64,000 nt of DNA from Polyangium fumosum (GTDB lineage Bacteria > Myxococcota_A > Polyangia > Polyangiales > Polyangiaceae), in contig NZ_SSMQ01000004.1 of assembly GCF_005144585.1 (NCBI RefSeq), forward strand, positions 124,001 through 188,000, given 5' to 3'. Numbering within the stretch: position 1 is the stretch's first letter; each line of letters starts with the position of its first letter. The translations under genes were made by a program, and so were the position numbers. Below the pieces are notes generated by a model, which was not told where the DNA came from, did not search any database, and worked only from the letters and a program-made list of their open reading frames with translations. Positions 4,787-21,705 of the stretch are shown here, one piece after another.

Positions 4787-5619
4787 GGTCGTCGCTTCGG
4801 GGGGCGCAGCGCGGTGACGGTCTGCGCGAGCCGGAACGGTTCGAGGCCCATGCTGCGCAGGCGCAGGACCTCACTCGCGGCCGAGAACAGAAGGCCCCCG
4901 TCTTCGAGCTCGTTCGCGAGCCGCGTGGCGACCTGCTCGCCGGCCTGCGTCGTCAGGTAGAGCAGCACGTTCTTGAACAGGATGATGTGGAACGGCCCCT
5001 GCGGCACGCGCTTGACGAGGTCGCACTCCTCGAACTCGACCGCGTTGCGGACGAGGAGCCCGACGCGCAGGCGGCCGTTCTGTTCGTCGCAGAAGCGCTC
5101 GACCCACGCGGGCGGGATGTCGCGCGCCGCCTCGCGCCCGTACGTCGCTTCGCGCGCGACCGCGATCGCCTCGGCCGAACGATCCACGCCGAGCACGCGG
5201 AAGCGCCGACGCGCCGCCGTGAGCAACATGCCCATCGTGTACGCCTCTTCGCCCGTGCTGCAGCCGGCCGAGAGCACCGCGAGCTCCACGTCCGCGGGGA
5301 AGAGCTTTTCGAGCTGGCGCTCGATCACCTCCCACTGCGCGCCGTCGCGGTAGAAGCGCGTCTCGCCCACGCGGAGCGAGGTGACGATCTGCTCGACCGC
5401 GGTCTTGTCCTTGAGCAGCTCCCGCGCGACCGCGTTCATCGACAGGCCGCTCCTGTACGACTGATGTTCGAGGTAACGACGCACGCGATCGCGCACCCAG
5501 CCGGGTGTCGCGCCGCTCGAGCCGAAGCCGAAGAGCTCTTCGGCGAGCTTCAGCGCGACGTCGACGGCGCGATCGCCCGAGTCAGGTCCAGACACGGATG
5601 AGCCCTTCGCGCGCGCCAT
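4783..5619 (-). CDS. CheR-type chemotaxis protein methyltransferase (orphan)
   Basis: This 278-residue protein carries an N-terminal CheR helical domain with GETRFYRD, matching the family NETxFFRD motif. The SAM-binding Rossmann domain follows: LSAGCSTGEEAYTMGM (motif I), LGVDRSAEAIAVARE, and FHIILFKNVLLYL. The enzyme should methylate glutamates on chemoreceptors. No receptors, CheA or CheB are nearby, so the substrate is unknown. It is the promoter-proximal gene of a set coupled to glnD by an ATGA overlap. The start chosen is the ATG at 5619; an in-frame ATG at 5658 would add 13 residues. CheR proteins in myxobacteria are often parts of Che/Frz-like pathways, but here it stands alone. Confidence 0.87.
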   Translation of the reverse strand: MARAKGSSVSGPDSGDRAVDVALKLAEELFGFGSSGATPGWVRDRVRRYLEHQSYRSGLSMNAVARELLKDKTAVEQIVTSLRVGETRFYRDGAQWEVIERQLEKLFPADVELAVLSAGCSTGEEAYTMGMLLTAARRRFRVLGVDRSAEAIAVAREATYGREAARDIPPAWVERFCDEQNGRLRVGLLVRNAVEFEECDLVKRVPQGPFHIILFKNVLLYLTTQAGEQVATRLANELEDGGLLFSAASEVLRLRSMGLEPFRLAQTVTALRPPKRRP

Positions 5620-5934
5620 GACGTTCGTGTTCGCTCTCGAGAAGCTCGCACGACGCATGCACGCTCTGTCGCGCGCCGTCCTCGGGGCGCGCGCAGGGCA
5701 TGTCGTCGGTCGACTGGCTTCCCGCTTCCATCGCGCCGCCAATTTATCACCAAGGCTCGGCCATCCAGGCCAAACATTCATCTTTCCGCCCCCCGCCGCC
5801 GTGAACCGGAGTCCACGCCCCCGCTCGACCGGCGAGATACACCTCGACCCCCGCGACGCGCGCCCGCCCGAGGCCCCTCGCTTCAATCCCGGAAAGCGCG
5901 TATGGCTTGGAACTTGCTCCCTTTCGCCCTCGCC
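5620..5934. other. Divergent intergenic region between cheR-like gene and a plus-strand gene
   Basis: No gene is supportable in these 315 bp. They separate divergently transcribed genes and should hold both promoters. A locally AT-rich stretch near 5740-5750 contains a possible minus-strand -10-like GATAAA (5743-5748), but no convincing -35 was found with it. Confidence 0.4.
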
Positions 5935-6834
5935 ATGCGCAAGACGATGCTCTGCTCGACCGCGGCGCTCGCCTGGTTCCTCACCGCCGGGACGGCCTCG
6001 GCCCAGGCGCCGCCCCCGACGCTCGAACCGCTTCCGCCCGGAGCGCCCCTCCCGCCCCACATCGTCCAGCACCCCGACGGCCGCACGACCGTCACCCGCA
6101 CCCCCGAGGAAGGCGTCGACGTTCACGCGCAGACGAGCGCCGGCACAGTCCACGCCTACGAATGCGGCCGCGTCGACGTCGATCCGCGCGCCCCTGCATC
6201 CGCGTCCGCGCACGGCGCGTGCCCCCTCCCCCACGCGCTACCGTACCCCTACCCCTCGGCGCCTCCGCCCGCCTACGCCTACCCGCCCCCGCCTCCACCG
6301 ATCGCGCCGCGCAAGCCCAAACCTCGGTACGCCCCGGATCCGGCCCGCCGCGGCGCGCTCATCGCGTCGAGCATCATCTTCGGCCTCGGCACGGTCACGA
6401 CCGGCGCCGCGTACCTCATCTCCCTCGGCGCGAGCGCGGCCTGCGGCGCCACGGAGGCCTGCAGCGTCGAGCCTTCGAAGTCCGCGCTGTACGCGATGGG
6501 CGCGATCCTGACGATCACGCCGAGCGTCCCGCGCTTCGTCGTAGGCGACTGGGGCAAGGGGCTGCTCTACACCGCGCTTCGGGGCGGCTCGTTCGCAGCG
6601 GGCACGATGATCGATTGGGACGACCCGACCCGCCTCGTCCCCCTCACGTTCGCGTTCCTCGTGCCGCTCACGCTCGGCATCGTGGACCTGGCGACGACAC
6701 CCCACCGCGAGCAGCTCGAAGCCAAGAAACAACAAGCCGCGAGCAGCTTCGAGCTTCGCGGCCTCGGCCCGACCGTCGCGTACGATCTCCGCGGCAACAC
6801 GATCCCGGCCCTCGGCGCGATCGGCACGTTCTGA
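5935..6834 (+). CDS. Secreted or membrane protein with Pro-rich linker, unknown function
   Basis: Not recognised. This 299-residue product starts with a Sec-type signal peptide (MRKTMLCSTAALAWFLTAG then TASAQA, likely cleavage after ASA). A Pro/Ala/Tyr-rich stretch follows to about residue 135, including short runs such as YPPPPPPIAPRKPKPRY. The C-terminal half has about four hydrophobic segments (near residues 142-163, 180-200, 215-225 and 240-260), suggesting an inner-membrane domain. The ATG at 5935 was preferred over the upstream in-frame ATG at 5902 because it places a proper n-region before the hydrophobic core. Its end lies 21 bp from the end of the convergent acyltransferase gene. Confidence 0.7.
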   Translation: MRKTMLCSTAALAWFLTAGTASAQAPPPTLEPLPPGAPLPPHIVQHPDGRTTVTRTPEEGVDVHAQTSAGTVHAYECGRVDVDPRAPASASAHGACPLPHALPYPYPSAPPPAYAYPPPPPPIAPRKPKPRYAPDPARRGALIASSIIFGLGTVTTGAAYLISLGASAACGATEACSVEPSKSALYAMGAILTITPSVPRFVVGDWGKGLLYTALRGGSFAAGTMIDWDDPTRLVPLTFAFLVPLTLGIVDLATTPHREQLEAKKQQAASSFELRGLGPTVAYDLRGNTIPALGAIGTF

Positions 6835-14737: not shown

Positions 14738-14838
14738 CCGGGGTTTCACCCCGGACCCGACCAGGGGCTCTTCGCCCCTGGACCCGAACCAGGGCAAGCC
14801 CTGGACCTCGCGTGCATCGACCGCAATGCGGTCGATGC
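14738..14838 (+). repeat. Four-hairpin dispersed element, copy A
   Basis: Four consecutive inverted repeats: hairpin 1 at 14738-14754 (ccgggg/cccc gg with loop tttca), hairpin 2 at 14761-14781 (ccagggg/cccctgg), hairpin 3 at 14789-14804 (ccagggc/gccctgg), and hairpin 4 at 14814-14838 with an 11-bp stem gcatcgaccgc closing on aat. Same order as copies B and E and the reverse of copies C and D. It sits between the PilZ gene and the next plus-strand gene. It could terminate or stabilise the upstream transcript. Confidence 0.8.
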
Positions 14839-14885
14839 GCAGCCGAACCTCGCCCGTACCTACCCGCATCGCGTACACTCGTGAT

Positions 14886-16994
14886 GTGCGCGATTTCCAA
14901 GCCAGCCCGAGAAAATTCGTCCTCCGTGGCTTCCTGCTCCTCGCGCTGACCGCCTCCGCGTGTATCGCCGGCGCGCCCGAGGGCATCCGTCGTCAGACCG
15001 ACGGCGACGAAGAAGACCCGCTCATCAATTTCGACGGCGGCGTGCCGCCCATCGACGCCGCGCCCGACATCCCGAACGCGGATCCCTACGCCGTCATCGG
15101 CGCCGATCCCACGCACGGCCCCTTCACCGGCGGCCAGCGCGTGCTCCTTCGCGGCAACGGCTTCGCAGCGGCGACGCGCGTCTGGTTCGGCGAGGTCGAG
15201 GCCGACACGTCCACGATGCTGCCGATCGATCCGACCCGGTTGCAGATCGTCGCGCCCAAGGGCTCCGCCGGCCCGGTCACGCTCACCGTGCAGAAGGGCG
15301 ACGACGAATCCACGCGCCGCTCGCTCCCCGGCGGATACGCCTACGACGCGCTCTACGCGGCGCCCTCGAGCGGGCCCGTTGCCGGCGGCACGGTCGTCGA
15401 AATCGCCGGCGACGGCACGAGCTGGGGGCCCGGCACGGTCGTCAAGATCGGCGGCAAACCCTGCACCACGCAGACCGTCAGCGGACCGACCTCGATCACG
15501 TGCACCGTCCCCAAAGGCACGCCCGGCGCGAAGCCCGTCGCGGTCGACGTGGGCGACGGCCAGCCGATCGTCGTGCTCGACGCATACACCTACGAGGACA
15601 GCACGAACGGCTTCAAGGGCGGCCTCTCCGGGGCTCTGCTCGCGGGCAAGCTCAAGGTGCTCGTCTACAACAACTTCACGGGGGATCCGATCCCCGGCGC
15701 GCACGTGATCGTGGGCAGCGCTCTCCCGTCCGCGCTCGTGAAACAGGTCGATTCGACGGGCGTCACGCTCTTCGACGATCCCTCGCTCTCGGGCCCGCGC
15801 ACCGTGACCATCGCGGCCAAGTGCCACAGCCCCATCTCGTTCGTCGACGTCCCCGTCGACACCGTCACCGTCTACCTGGATCCCGTCCTCAGCCCTGCTT
15901 GTGTGGCCGACGGCGATCCTCCGCCGGTCGGGGGCAAACCCGGCGCGGGCGGCGGCATCCGCGGCGAGCTCGTCTGGACCGGCAACGTCGAGTTCAAGAA
16001 ATCCCCCTGGATCAACGTACCCGCGCCCGCGCCGGGCGAACGCCAGGCCGCGTACGTCTTCCACGCGACGCAGGATCCGACCGCGTCCTTCCAGCTCCCA
16101 CACCCCTCGACGGCCATCCTCCCCGATACACCCGGCGAGCTCGGCTACCAGTTCCAGCTCGGCAGCGGCGCCGGCAACCGCGCCCTGTACGCGCTTGCCG
16201 GTGTCGAGACCACGAACACCGTCCCGACGAAGTTCACGGCGTACGCGATGGGCATGGTGCAAGGCGTGAGCGTGCAGCCGGGCGTGTTCACCGAGCAGGT
16301 CTACATCGTGATGGATCGGTCGCTCGATCAAGCCCTCACGATGAACGTCACGCCGCCCGCGCCAGGGCCGAAGGGTCCGGATCGCGTGCGCGCCACGGTC
16401 TCCGTGATGCTCGGCAACGACGGCTACGCGATCCTGCCTGCGGGCGTGAAGACGCCGCTCTTGCCGCTCGCTGGGCCCATCCCCTTCGTCGGCCTGCCTG
16501 CGCTCGACGGCTCGTTGTTTGGCGCGACGTACCACTCCACTGCGCGCGCGGTCACGGGCGCGCAGGCCTCGGCGCCGATGTCCGTCGTCGGCCGGCTGCT
16601 CTCGACGAGCACCGCCGAGGGCCTCCTCGTGGATGGGTTCGTCGGCGTGCCGACGCTGAACACGCCGGCGAGCGGCGCGGCCTGGGATGGCCGTCACCTC
16701 GCGACCACGTTCGGCGCCGGCGGCTCTGCGATCGACCTCTCGGTCTACGACATCGCGAGCGGTGGCGGCCTCATCCGCTGGACCGTCGTCGTGCCCAAGG
16801 GCTCGCACGCCGTCGAGGTCCCCGATCTCTCGGGCTTCCCCTTCCCCTCGGGCGGCCTGCCGGGCGGGCCCGTCACGATCGGCGTCTATGGCGCGCGCGT
16901 CGAGAAGTTCTCCTACGGCGCGCTCCGCTACCGCGACATCCGGCCGAGCGGCATGAGCGCCTATGCCCTCGACTACTTCAACGTGTTCCTGTGA
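14886..16994 (+). CDS. IPT/TIG-domain surface lipoprotein
   Basis: This 702-residue protein has a leader ending in LTASAC (lipobox-like) near residue 25, then an acidic, probably disordered linker. Two IPT/TIG immunoglobulin-like domains follow, the first with GPFTGGQRVLLRGNGF and the second with SGPVAGGTVVEIAGDG. A segment around residue 260 (LKVLVYNNFTGDPIPGAHV) resembles a carboxypeptidase-regulatory-like/TonB-plug beta-sandwich. The C-terminal half has no recognised domain. GTG 14886 is the best start because it puts the charged n-region directly before the hydrophobic stretch. It precedes the IgGFc-like lipoprotein gene by 19 bp, so the two are probably one operon of surface proteins. 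Confidence 0.8.
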   Translation: MRDFQASPRKFVLRGFLLLALTASACIAGAPEGIRRQTDGDEEDPLINFDGGVPPIDAAPDIPNADPYAVIGADPTHGPFTGGQRVLLRGNGFAAATRVWFGEVEADTSTMLPIDPTRLQIVAPKGSAGPVTLTVQKGDDESTRRSLPGGYAYDALYAAPSSGPVAGGTVVEIAGDGTSWGPGTVVKIGGKPCTTQTVSGPTSITCTVPKGTPGAKPVAVDVGDGQPIVVLDAYTYEDSTNGFKGGLSGALLAGKLKVLVYNNFTGDPIPGAHVIVGSALPSALVKQVDSTGVTLFDDPSLSGPRTVTIAAKCHSPISFVDVPVDTVTVYLDPVLSPACVADGDPPPVGGKPGAGGGIRGELVWTGNVEFKKSPWINVPAPAPGERQAAYVFHATQDPTASFQLPHPSTAILPDTPGELGYQFQLGSGAGNRALYALAGVETTNTVPTKFTAYAMGMVQGVSVQPGVFTEQVYIVMDRSLDQALTMNVTPPAPGPKGPDRVRATVSVMLGNDGYAILPAGVKTPLLPLAGPIPFVGLPALDGSLFGATYHSTARAVTGAQASAPMSVVGRLLSTSTAEGLLVDGFVGVPTLNTPASGAAWDGRHLATTFGAGGSAIDLSVYDIASGGGLIRWTVVVPKGSHAVEVPDLSGFPFPSGGLPGGPVTIGVYGARVEKFSYGALRYRDIRPSGMSAYALDYFNVFL

Positions 16995-17013
16995 TCGCGA
17001 CGAGGAGACGCGC

Positions 17014-19020
17014 ATGAACGAGCGATCCAGGCGCTCGAAGAAGCTCGGCCGCGGCGCCCTCGTCGTCTTCGCCACGGCGCTCGTCGCGAGCTGCTTCGAC
17101 AAATCGACCCGCTGGGAAGAGGTCGAGCCCAAGCCCCCGCCGCCGCCCGCGTGCGTCGTGGGCCTCGAACGATGCACGACCGCGCTCGAGCGCTGCACCG
17201 ACGACGGCGCGGGCCCTGCGTGGACCCTCGTCGAGGACTGCGCGGCCGAGGGCCTCGTCTGCGCGCCGACCTTGCTCCGCTGCACGGCGTGCCTCCCGAA
17301 TGCAGGGAGCTGCAAGGGACAAGAGGCCTACCGCTGCAACGCGGATGGCACCGCCGCGACGCTCGTCGACACGTGTGATCCGTCGAAGGGCATCGCGTGC
17401 CGCCTCGGAAACTGCGTGGATCTCTGCGGCCGCGCGACCATCGAGAAGAGCAACGTCGGCTGCGAGTACTGGGCGGTCGACCTCGACAACGCGATGATCG
17501 ACGCGACCAGCAACGCGGCCGCGCAGCAGTTCGCGGTCGTCATCTCGAACCCGCACCCGGACGTCGCCGTCTCCGTGCGGATCGCGCAGGACGACGGCCT
17601 GCCGGGCTCCGAAGCTGCGCCCTACGACATCGCGACCGCGGTCATCGCGCCCTTGAACCTCCAGGTCTTCAAGCTCGGCCCGCGCGAGGTCGACGGCAGC
17701 CCCGAGGGCGAATACGACACGGGCACGCACACGGCGCTCACGCGGCACGCCTACCGCGTCCGCTCGGATTTCCCCGTCGTCGCGTATCAGTTCAACCCGC
17801 TCGAAAACGTCAACGTCTTCTCGAACGACGCGTCGCTCTTGAAGCCCACCGAGGCGCTCTCGTTCGGCGTCGAGGACAGCCTCATCACGTCGTACGTCGT
17901 CGTCGGCTGGCCGCAGACGATCGCCGCGACCGACGATCCGGACACGAACTTCAACCCGAACGACCCGACCCACCTCCGCTCGTTCCTCACGGTCGTCGGC
18001 ACGCAGCCGAACACCACGGTCCGTGTGCATACGAAGACCAAGGTCGTCGGCGGCGGCCCTGTGCCCGAGACGCCGGCGAACGGCACGATCGAAGCGCGCC
18101 TCGACGCCTTCGACGTGCTGAACCTGGAGACGGGCGATTTCAACGCCGACTTCACGGGCAGCACCATCGAGTCGACCGGGCCCATTGCGGTCTTCACGGG
18201 CGGCGAGGCCTCGGACGCGCCCCATTTCCCGACCCTGGCCTACCGCCGCTGCTGCGCCGATCACCTCGAAGATCAGCTCGATCCGGTCCGCACGGCTGGA
18301 AAGTCGTTCGCCATCCCGCACACGCCGAGCCGCACGCGCATGGTCAAACAAGCCGGCGCGCTCATCGACGAGGTCCCCGAGCCCGATTACGTGCGCTTCG
18401 TCGCCGCCTCGAAGGCCGGCGCGAAGATCACGACGAGCCTGCCGCCTCCGTACGACGTGATCGACCTCAAGTGGCTCGGCGATTCGGCCGAGGTCACGAC
18501 CTACCGCCATTTCACGGCCGAGAGCACGGAGCCCATCATCGTGGCGCAGATCATGGGCAGCCAGGACGCCGCGGGCGTGCGACGTGGCCTGCCCGGCGGC
18601 GATCCGAGCCTGCTCATCGTCCCCCCGCTCGAGCAGGCCCGACCCGATTACGTCTTCCTCACGCCCGACAAATACGCATTCGATTACGTCTCGATCGTCG
18701 TGCCCGCGGGCCAGGGTGTCCTGCTCGACGAGATCCTCATGGGCCCTGATAGCTGCGAGGTCGAGGCGGCCGACGGCCTCACGATCGAGGAGCGCGGCGG
18801 CGAGCCGCCTGCGTACCTCGTCTACAACTGCCAGCTCAGCTTCCCCCTCATCGAGGCGCTCGCGAACTTCGTGATCACCCTGCCGGGCAAGCAAAACGAC
18901 GGCGTCCACCGGGTCGTCGCCGGCGTCCCGGTCCTCGTGACCGTGGGTGGGTTCGATTCGTACGTGAGTTATTCGTACGCGGCGGGCACCGATCTCCGGG
19001 CGATCGCGCTGCCGGAGTGA
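17014..19020 (+). CDS. IgGFc-binding-like surface lipoprotein (copy 1)
   Basis: This 668-residue lipoprotein has lipobox LVASC, a Pro-rich linker and a Cys-rich module of about 100 residues (spaced Cys around CTDDGAGPAWTLVEDC). A large domain with the hallmarks of the IgGFc-binding N-terminal family follows: GCEYWAVDLDN, FPVVAYQFNPL, GPIAVFTGG, CCADHLEDQLDPV, and PDYVFLTPDKYAFDYVSIVV. The family name comes from a mucin-like mammalian protein; in myxobacteria these are secreted surface proteins of unknown ligand. Start ATG 17014 follows GAGGAG at a good distance. It is paralogous to the gene at 31233-33038. A hairpin after the stop separates it from the convergent eutBC gene. Confidence 0.82.
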   Translation: MNERSRRSKKLGRGALVVFATALVASCFDKSTRWEEVEPKPPPPPACVVGLERCTTALERCTDDGAGPAWTLVEDCAAEGLVCAPTLLRCTACLPNAGSCKGQEAYRCNADGTAATLVDTCDPSKGIACRLGNCVDLCGRATIEKSNVGCEYWAVDLDNAMIDATSNAAAQQFAVVISNPHPDVAVSVRIAQDDGLPGSEAAPYDIATAVIAPLNLQVFKLGPREVDGSPEGEYDTGTHTALTRHAYRVRSDFPVVAYQFNPLENVNVFSNDASLLKPTEALSFGVEDSLITSYVVVGWPQTIAATDDPDTNFNPNDPTHLRSFLTVVGTQPNTTVRVHTKTKVVGGGPVPETPANGTIEARLDAFDVLNLETGDFNADFTGSTIESTGPIAVFTGGEASDAPHFPTLAYRRCCADHLEDQLDPVRTAGKSFAIPHTPSRTRMVKQAGALIDEVPEPDYVRFVAASKAGAKITTSLPPPYDVIDLKWLGDSAEVTTYRHFTAESTEPIIVAQIMGSQDAAGVRRGLPGGDPSLLIVPPLEQARPDYVFLTPDKYAFDYVSIVVPAGQGVLLDEILMGPDSCEVEAADGLTIEERGGEPPAYLVYNCQLSFPLIEALANFVITLPGKQNDGVHRVVAGVPVLVTVGGFDSYVSYSYAAGTDLRAIALPE

Positions 19021-19082: not shown

Positions 19083-21512
19083 TTAGAGGTTCTTGAGCTG
19101 CGCCACCACCTGCTTTGCGGACGCGACCGGATCCTTGTCTTTGTACGTCGTGTCGGCGAGGCCGGCGAAGACGCTCGTGATGTCGTGGTCGACCTTGCCC
19201 GCCTGGGCCCAGACCTCGACCTTCGGGTTCGTCATGTACACCGAGAACGCGCGGTGCTCGCTGCCCGGCCGCTCGCCGATGATGTGCACGATGGCTCGCC
19301 TGCTCTGCGTATCGGCGAGTTTTCCGTAAAGGACCTCGCCCGCGTGATACCCCGCGCGCACGCGCCCCGCCGTGCACACGATGTGCTCGGGCGCGACCTT
19401 GTAGCCCGCCTTTTCGAGCTCCGCGCGCAGCGCCGGCAGGAACTTGTCGACGTGGCCCGGATCCGAGATCGAGAAGGCGTTCAGGCCCTCGGAAATCATG
19501 ATCTGCACGTCGTATTTGCCCGCGTGCGTGTCGCGCAGCGTCTCGAGCTCGCGAACCGCCTCGTCCTTGAGCTGCTCGCCCGTCGGCGGGTGCAGGATGT
19601 AATCGTCGCGATCCTTCGCGCCCGTCCAGATCTTCACCGCGCTCGGGATCGTCGCGACAAACGCCGGATCGAGCTCGGCGAGGATGCTCTTCTTGCCGTC
19701 GGCCACGAGGTCGCGGATGTACTTGTCGAGCGTGGGGTTCAGATCCCACGGGTTCGCCCCGTGGCCCTCGGCGATGAACACGCCGCGCGCCTTCACGGCG
19801 TCGAGCGCGTCGAGCGTCTCCTGCGCATTCATGATCTCGTCCACGGAGCGCATGTCGGCCGGGTCCTTCGCCTTCACGTACTTCGCGTAGACGTACTTCA
19901 CGTTGCCGAAGTACTGCGTGGGCTTGCCCATGGCGTCGATCACGCCGAGCTCCTGGAAAAATGCCCACATCTTGTCGTCGACCTTGAAGCCGTGCTTCTC
20001 GCGGATCCGGACGTGGTCCTGAAACGCGGTCGTCAGGTACGAGAGCATCGGATCGTTCTTCGTGGGCAAACCCATGAGGTAGGCGGGGTTCGCCGGCATG
20101 ATCTCGTCGATGCACCAGTCGAGATCGTCGAGATCCACCGACATGTGCAGCGTCGAGCAGATGTCCAAGCCGATGGGCAGGCCGTGGAGCTTGCCCATCA
20201 CGATGTCCTCCAGACAGCAGCGGACGAGCTGCTGCTTCGTGCGGAAGACCTCGGGGCCGATGAAGCCCGCCACGTCGTTCAGGTGCACCCAGGGCGCCTC
20301 GGGTTGGCCCGCGGCCTTTTGCGCCTCGGCCACCTTCTTCTTCAGCGCGCGCGCAAAGCCGTACTTGCGCGCCTCGTGCACGACCATGTCGAAGCCCGCG
20401 CCGTGGCCGTTCGTCGCGTCCGCGCCCTGGCCCGTCTCGAAGTAGAGCCCGTACTTGCCCGAGCGCGTGGCCGCGTGGTTCAGCATCTTCTCCACGGTCA
20501 CGTCGAACGTCGCGTTCGCGTCGACCGTGCTGCCGAGGCTCTGGAACCAGAGCGCCGTCGAGAGCGGGAACTGCTTCTCCACCTCGGCCTGCACGTCGAT
20601 GTGCGCGAGACAGCAATGCGGCAGCGTGTCTTCGAGCTTGAACGTGACGAGCACGTCCTTCAGCACCTCCTCGATGGCGTGCACGCTCGCGACCTCGCTC
20701 GACACGGGGTTGTTGCCGAGCACGACGTCGCCGACCGCGAAGGCGAAGCCGTTCATGACCTGCCAGAGGATGTCGTTCGTGTCGTCGGTGGGCGAGTTCG
20801 GCTGGATACGCGCGCCCATGTACCCCTTGGCGCCGATGTTCGAGCCCGGCAGCGGGTTGAACACCGTCTGGCCGACCTTGATGAGCTCGTCGTTGCTCAT
20901 GAGCTTCACGATCATGCCGATGATGTCGCTCGGCAGGCCCACCATGACGGCCTTGATCTCGTCCTCGGTCTTTTCGAGCAAGAACGATTTGAGCTCCGAC
21001 ATCTTCCACGCGCGCACGCCGTCGAGCGCGGTCGCGTCGGTCGCCTTGAGGACGAGGTCATACACCGCGTCTTCGAGCATCGGGCGGTCCACGAGGTCGC
21101 CGATCTTCGTGTTCGCAAGGAGCTTGCGCGCGTTCTCGCGCGACGGCTCGTCGGCGGCTGCGATCCCGAGGGCCTCGTCGCCTTCCTTGAAATCGTTCGC
21201 GGCGCCGATCACGGCCTTGTAGAACTCGTGGTCGTACTTCTCCTTGACGCGGATCACGTAGGCGATCACGTCCTCGCCTTCCTTGATTTCGGGGATGGAT
21301 ACGCCCGAAGGCGCCGTGGGCGCCCCAGGCGCCGGCGCGATGGGATCGGAGCCACACCCCGCCGCGAACGTCGCGGCGACGCCGCCAAGGAGCCCCATCA
21401 TGAAGGTGCGACGGCGAAGCGCGAGGCGCGTCGCTGGGGGAAGCGCCGTCGCCGCCACCCGAATCTGCCGAGGTCTACGAGGACGAGTGAGCTCGTTTGT
21501 CAGCTTCTTCAT
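19083..21512 (-). CDS. eutBC: EutB-EutC fusion ethanolamine ammonia-lyase with Tat/lipoprotein leader
   Basis: This 809-residue protein joins the large (EutB) and small (EutC) subunits of adenosylcobalamin-dependent ethanolamine ammonia-lyase. The EutB part has ARIQPN, VGDVVLGNNPVSS, YFETGQG, GFIGPE and GLPIGLD. Aligned by eye to the E. coli enzyme, the pocket residues R160, Q162, N193, E287, F329 and D362 correspond to R235, Q237, N268, E359, F417 and D450. The EutC part (about 625-809) has DDYILHPPTGEQL, IGERPG and SVYMTN. The N-terminus is unusual: RRRTFMM at 33-39, a Gly/Ala hydrophobic stretch and FAAGC at 49-53, which looks like a Tat lipoprotein leader. A Pro/Ala linker follows. ATG 21512 follows GGGAG; ATG 21536 has no ribosome binding site. 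It would convert ethanolamine to acetaldehyde and ammonia. No other eut gene is present. Confidence 0.88.
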   Translation of the reverse strand: MKKLTNELTRPRRPRQIRVAATALPPATRLALRRRTFMMGLLGGVAATFAAGCGSDPIAPAPGAPTAPSGVSIPEIKEGEDVIAYVIRVKEKYDHEFYKAVIGAANDFKEGDEALGIAAADEPSRENARKLLANTKIGDLVDRPMLEDAVYDLVLKATDATALDGVRAWKMSELKSFLLEKTEDEIKAVMVGLPSDIIGMIVKLMSNDELIKVGQTVFNPLPGSNIGAKGYMGARIQPNSPTDDTNDILWQVMNGFAFAVGDVVLGNNPVSSEVASVHAIEEVLKDVLVTFKLEDTLPHCCLAHIDVQAEVEKQFPLSTALWFQSLGSTVDANATFDVTVEKMLNHAATRSGKYGLYFETGQGADATNGHGAGFDMVVHEARKYGFARALKKKVAEAQKAAGQPEAPWVHLNDVAGFIGPEVFRTKQQLVRCCLEDIVMGKLHGLPIGLDICSTLHMSVDLDDLDWCIDEIMPANPAYLMGLPTKNDPMLSYLTTAFQDHVRIREKHGFKVDDKMWAFFQELGVIDAMGKPTQYFGNVKYVYAKYVKAKDPADMRSVDEIMNAQETLDALDAVKARGVFIAEGHGANPWDLNPTLDKYIRDLVADGKKSILAELDPAFVATIPSAVKIWTGAKDRDDYILHPPTGEQLKDEAVRELETLRDTHAGKYDVQIMISEGLNAFSISDPGHVDKFLPALRAELEKAGYKVAPEHIVCTAGRVRAGYHAGEVLYGKLADTQSRRAIVHIIGERPGSEHRAFSVYMTNPKVEVWAQAGKVDHDITSVFAGLADTTYKDKDPVASAKQVVAQLKNL

Positions 21513-21705
21513 GCGATCGTGCTCCCAAGCAACCATCCAAAGAGTGCGTCGCCCGCATAACGGCGAACCGCATCGAGCGGCCCACCACCCGCGGAAGGCA
21601 CCTTTCGAATAAAGGCACCCCGAATCAATTGTAGGCCGAGCGTCCTCGCTCTGGCAACGCCCCTCGTCATGGATCGGGTATGGTGGTCACCCAATGAGGC
21701 ACGAC

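Follow-up and report, generated by a model that had tools for sequence, protein, structure and literature searches.

Radical enzymes that depend on adenosylcobalamin (AdoCbl) are commonly regarded as cytoplasmic, since the cytoplasm is where their cofactor is synthesised and repaired and since radicals and aldehydes are damaging. The canonical ethanolamine ammonia-lyase (EAL) EutBC is represented by the enzymes of E. coli and Salmonella (PDB 3abo, 2qez). In Acinetobacter baumannii, where the eutB and eutC genes are cotranscribed with an aldehyde dehydrogenase gene, EutBC works without EutA or a microcompartment and was detected at the cell membrane in immuno-electron microscopy, no N-terminal signal being predicted for EutC (PMC9426561). 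The view taken in the original prediction for the present locus, that known EALs are cytoplasmic or enclosed in microcompartments, therefore needs a caveat. A corrinoid enzyme with a twin-arginine (Tat) leader is known in the reductive dehalogenase PceA (PMC8905343). It is a corrinoid iron-sulfur reductase and not an AdoCbl radical enzyme, and its fold and chemistry are unrelated to those of the protein described here.

The window, i.e. the whole 64,000-nucleotide stretch of DNA from the soil myxobacterium Polyangium fumosum that was analyzed, encodes an EutBC that differs from the canonical enzyme in being a single chain with a Tat-type leader, in lacking a bacterial microcompartment (BMC) and a eutA partner, and in carrying insertions before GFIGPE and in EutC, with an identity of about 31-33% over EutB. 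It also differs from the A. baumannii enzyme, with its eutB and eutC genes and no EutC signal, in being a fused chain with a leader. The window protein is probably an exported variant of a known enzyme. In our judgement there is a good probability that it belongs to a distinct exported subfamily of AdoCbl-dependent EAL, which would use the Tat system to cross the inner membrane and would be tethered through Cys53 in the Myxococcota.

The fused gene and its catalytic pocket

As had been proposed, one gene encodes both subunits. Its minus-strand open reading frame extends from the ATG at 21512 to the stop codon at 19083-19085 and yields a single chain with both EutB and EutC Pfam matches. The features of the gene and of the enzyme part are as follows:

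19083..21512, minus strand: coding sequence of the fused EutB-EutC, 809 residues (open reading frame; similar-length homologues in other Polyangium genomes)
21522..21526, minus strand: GGGAG, a likely ribosome-binding site 9 nt ahead of the ATG at 21512 (sequence; stretch conserved in all Polyangium copies)
21628..21657, minus strand: promoter-like TTGCCA-18-TACAAT, some 116 nt upstream of the ATG (consensus match only, 10/12)
19914..21227, minus strand: EutB domain, residues 96-533, with R235, Q237, N268, E359, F417 and D450 (PF06751, E 9.8e-136)
19704..19913, minus strand: inter-domain linker, residues 534-603 (between the two Pfam matches)
19227..19703, minus strand: EutC domain core, residues 604-762, with ISEGL, GRV and GERPG (PF05985, E 3.2e-25)

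The promoter-like element was found once as compared to 0.2 expected in shuffles. When the window and the related loci were searched with Rfam, no cobalamin riboswitch was found. Codon comparison of the Polyangium copies indicates purifying selection on the gene, with an overall pN/pS of 0.34-0.43. The linker at residues 54-78 is looser (0.43-1.13), and residues 541-595 of the inter-domain linker are under relaxed constraint (about 0.5-1).

The window protein scores above the cut-off of NF011649, and its PF05985 match is above the Pfam cut-off; the NCBIfam EutC equivalog remains below its own (72 of 230 bits). A profile of ten clade members found the solved chains of EutB and EutC with E values of 1e-83 and 7e-15, respectively. 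An AlphaFold2 model with a pLDDT of 36 was discarded; the underlying alignment was too shallow because it had been built from the window protein and three Polyangium relatives alone.

Alignment with E. coli EutB assigned R160, Q162, N193, E287, F329 and D362 to R235, Q237, N268, E359, F417 and D450, so that each of the six pocket residues originally picked by eye was confirmed. The R-to-N and F-to-D spacings, claimed to equal those of E. coli, are indeed 33 residues in both proteins. Equivalents of V326 and L402 are present as well, and the GRV and GERPG motifs of canonical EutC are conserved.

Relatives, gene context and substrate

Among 379 sampled Myxococcota genomes, 108 contain an EutB-like match of some kind. 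An EutBC of the window type, with 56-100% identity along almost its full length, is encoded in ten of the 379, host included, and the remaining matches show less than 40% identity and mostly cover the EutB part alone. Outside the Myxococcota, where relatives were sought in plasmid records, the nearest ones seen are fused proteins on Rhizobiaceae megaplasmids (S. meliloti pSymA, CP140920.1; S. fredii, Ensifer, Pararhizobium). These are annotated only as the EutB subunit and share about 52% identity with the window protein from about residue 71 (residues 71-806). With the S. meliloti protein as a query, 18 carriers were detected class-wide among 318 genomes. In a phylogeny of 42 EutB sequences, the window protein and its relatives, Rhizobiaceae proteins included, form a clade on one side of a branch with 100/100 support, at 2.4 changes per site from canonical EutB. 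This EutBC clade is distinct, has full support and lies at a great distance from the canonical enzymes.

In Polyangium the window gene stands alone, flanked by a convergent lipoprotein-like gene with an IgGFc-binding domain and by a divergent lipoprotein-like gene. A LysR gene lies upstream of the clade gene in two other loci (L037, L038), and glycan genes precede that of S. meliloti. No recognisable eut genes were found beside the clade genes in Polyangium or in the loci of the other carriers. The suggestion that prey-derived phospholipid headgroups supply the substrate found no support: nothing in the gene context points to it, and the same form is carried by rhizobia, which are not predators.

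The divergence of the clade from canonical EutB could mean that the exported EutBC fold no longer acts on ethanolamine, but on another amino alcohol, or that it binds a corrinoid or substrate without turnover. The long branch, the missing eut neighbours and 17 positions that are invariant in canonical EutB and uniformly occupied by a different residue among the leader-bearing members would fit this explanation. However, all eight EutB positions compared (the six pocket residues, V326 and L402) are identical in 20 of 20 clade members as well as in 20 canonical EutBs, Pfam recognises EutB and EutC in every clade member scanned, and the gene context is uninformative rather than contrary to an EAL. 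We therefore regard a changed or lost activity as rather unlikely, though it is the most serious of the alternatives to an exported EAL.

Two further observations concern the neighbouring genes. At window positions 14826-19020, next to the EutBC gene, a large lipoprotein-like gene with IPT/TIG domains and another with an IgGFc-binding domain follow one another in an order that is conserved in Polyangium. In one of the Myxococcota loci (L035 of genome G062, positions 5484-6383), the 3' end of the leader-form EutBC gene shares 4 nt with an overlapping gene for an alpha/beta-hydrolase, which has a lipoprotein-like start and is a possible operon partner.

The conserved leader and its probable loss in one genus

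The N-terminus of the window protein, RRRTFMMGLLGGVAATFAAGC, carries a twin arginine at positions 34-35 and a cysteine at position 53. Its features are:

21354..21512, minus strand: leader, residues 1-53, with a long n-region, twin Arg, hydrophobic stretch and Cys53 (leader comparison, shuffles, codon constraint, alignment)
21396..21413, minus strand: twin-arginine motif RRTFMM, residues 34-39 (R34 and R35 invariant in the ten-member alignment)
21354..21356, minus strand: Cys53, putative lipidated +1 residue after FAAG (Cys after RR in every Myxococcota leader member)

The RRT of RRRTFMM is followed by a run of 19 uncharged residues. R34 and R35 are invariant among ten members that are mostly 51-63% identical to the window protein. 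The pattern RRx[FLMI] with an uncharged run is native to 10 of 10 representative members and arises in 0.06-2.9% of the N-terminus shuffles per member; RRx(F/L)(L/M) with an uncharged run is present in all 15 leader-bearing proteins analyzed. For the part of the leader around the twin arginine, pN/pS among the Polyangium copies is 0.10-0.79, from small counts. In three relatives (L012, L013, L014) the twin arginine comes only 4-10 residues after the ATG, which excludes an artefact of too early a start for their leaders.

A cysteine follows the twin arginine in every leader-bearing Myxococcota member. The lipobox is imperfect in several of them (FAAGC, SVVRC, GTGC, QTGC), position -3 often not being L, V or I, and it is canonical in L054 (LSGC). 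The two Rhizobiaceae proteins examined also begin with twin-arginine leaders, MSKRLFSRQRDGLTRRDLLLMAGATATLASYSHAAK and MIKGLSSKGQGGLSRRELLVMVGTAAGTLASYSDAAK, which differ in lacking a lipobox cysteine and in ending with an Ala-type cleavage site. Curated Tat models did not match the window leader, and none reached its cut-off in the relatives, four of which gave matches to PF10518 or TIGR01409 below threshold. The leader form is present in Polyangium, in other genera and families of the Myxococcota and in the Rhizobiaceae. The comparison supports a Tat-type, lipoprotein-like leader conserved across genera and families, in line with the Tat lipoprotein-type leader that had been predicted from RRRTFMM, a Gly/Ala-rich hydrophobic stretch and AAGC.

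Whether fused homologues share the leader had been raised at the outset, and the answer is divided: the Myxococcota and the Rhizobiaceae do, the latter with the cleavable kind, and five genomes of genus g310 (family f13; L062-L066) do not. The g310 proteins start with MPAVRVHD or a near variant, and in L065 an in-frame stop codon lies just upstream of this start. Leaderless homologues, which had been expected to speak against an exported enzyme, do exist, yet the five form one derived group with 100/100 support and a long stem branch inside the leader-bearing clade, with the leader-bearing L054 as their sister (98/93). Because of this nested position, a single loss of the leader in g310 would be the simplest account.

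The N-terminus might instead anchor or target the protein at the inner membrane without crossing it, so that catalysis would stay cytoplasmic. The canonical EAL is an oligomer of roughly 500 kDa, large for the Tat system, which would be easier to reconcile with such an anchor, as would the existence of leaderless relatives. Moreover, EutBC of A. baumannii associates with the membrane without any signal (PMC9426561). Nevertheless, an invariant twin arginine, an uncharged stretch and an end of Cys or Ala type according to lineage have the look of an export leader and not of a plain anchor, and we hold a mere anchor to be improbable, somewhat more so than a change of activity. That the leader is an annotation artefact of an ordinary cytoplasmic EutBC with its true start downstream of RRRTF is very improbable and was rejected: Met38 and Met39 do follow the twin arginine and homologues without a leader exist, but a good ribosome-binding site and constrained leader codons favour the ATG at 21512, the ATG closely precedes the twin arginine in the short-leader relatives L012 and L013, the Rhizobiaceae have leaders of the same kind, and a start at Met38 would expose a hydrophobic N-terminus.

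A proposed route of export and a possible division of labour between EutB copies

For the exported EAL that we favour, the conserved export tag suggests purposeful export of a B12 radical enzyme from the cytoplasm. As EutB and EutC are one chain, a single twin-arginine leader could carry both subunits. The Tat system carries folded proteins. The chain would thus fold in the cytoplasm, most likely taking up AdoCbl there, since loading before export is possible with such a system, and the folded chain would then cross the inner membrane. The size of the canonical oligomer implies that assembly would have to follow export. The Myxococcota protein would remain tethered via a lipidated Cys53. The Rhizobiaceae leader looks cleavable, and the product would therefore be free in the periplasm. 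In the cell envelope, ethanolamine or a close amino alcohol would be converted to acetaldehyde and ammonia, which would spare the cytoplasm the aldehyde and let the ammonia be taken up.

We know of no reactivase or AdoCbl supply in the periplasm. The missing EutA partner need not be fatal, because the A. baumannii EAL requires neither EutA nor a microcompartment. The difficulties of an exported enzyme lie in the oligomer size, the AdoCbl supply outside the cytoplasm and the fate of acetaldehyde. If the clade is a conserved exported family, it raises the questions of how AdoCbl enters the enzyme and is retained outside the cytoplasm, how an EAL can last there in the absence of EutA, and which ethanolamine source serves in the envelope. 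We put the chances at about even that this is the first AdoCbl-dependent radical enzyme known outside the cytoplasm, i.e. an old, stand-alone family of Tat-exported EutBC in Myxococcota and on rhizobial symbiosis megaplasmids that turns over in the envelope without EutA. In a search of papers from outside the subscription journals, rhizobial Tat and secretion papers among them, we found no paper pairing EAL with twin-arginine export or describing an exported or fused EAL. The clade can be tested in a genetically easy organism, since members reside on the symbiosis megaplasmid of S. meliloti.

The host genome encodes TatC and TatA as well as a cobalamin adenosyltransferase of the Cob_adeno_trans family; the BMC shell protein domain PF00936 was not found in it. 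Its one full EutA gene lies on a contig other than that of the window gene, directly before a second EutBC gene (contig C160 of the host genome, G000). This second EutBC is, like the window protein, a fused EutB-EutC chain, so the fusion is not special to the window gene; it differs in having no leader and in being very distant in the tree. The exported enzyme would work apart from this cytoplasmic EutA-EutBC pair. The second EutBC (L042 / L002, about 53411-57100 on C160) has Ala at the position of the substrate-binding Asp362 of E. coli (GLPMGMAPCFTLH), a change that recurs in three other Polyangium genomes, and it might be something other than a usual ethanolamine enzyme.

A second EutB accompanies the leader form in all six Polyangium genomes, in the four f11 genomes and in G465; the exceptions are G062 and G279, where the leader form is the only EutB. 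Four of the five leaderless genomes, namely G460, G461, G462 and G464, have the leaderless copy as their sole EutB and lack a full EutA. This pattern agrees with a division of labour between compartments but does not prove it. In genome G463 (contig C2, 4852818-4854928), the g310 copy is split over two frames, by a sequencing error or in a broken gene.
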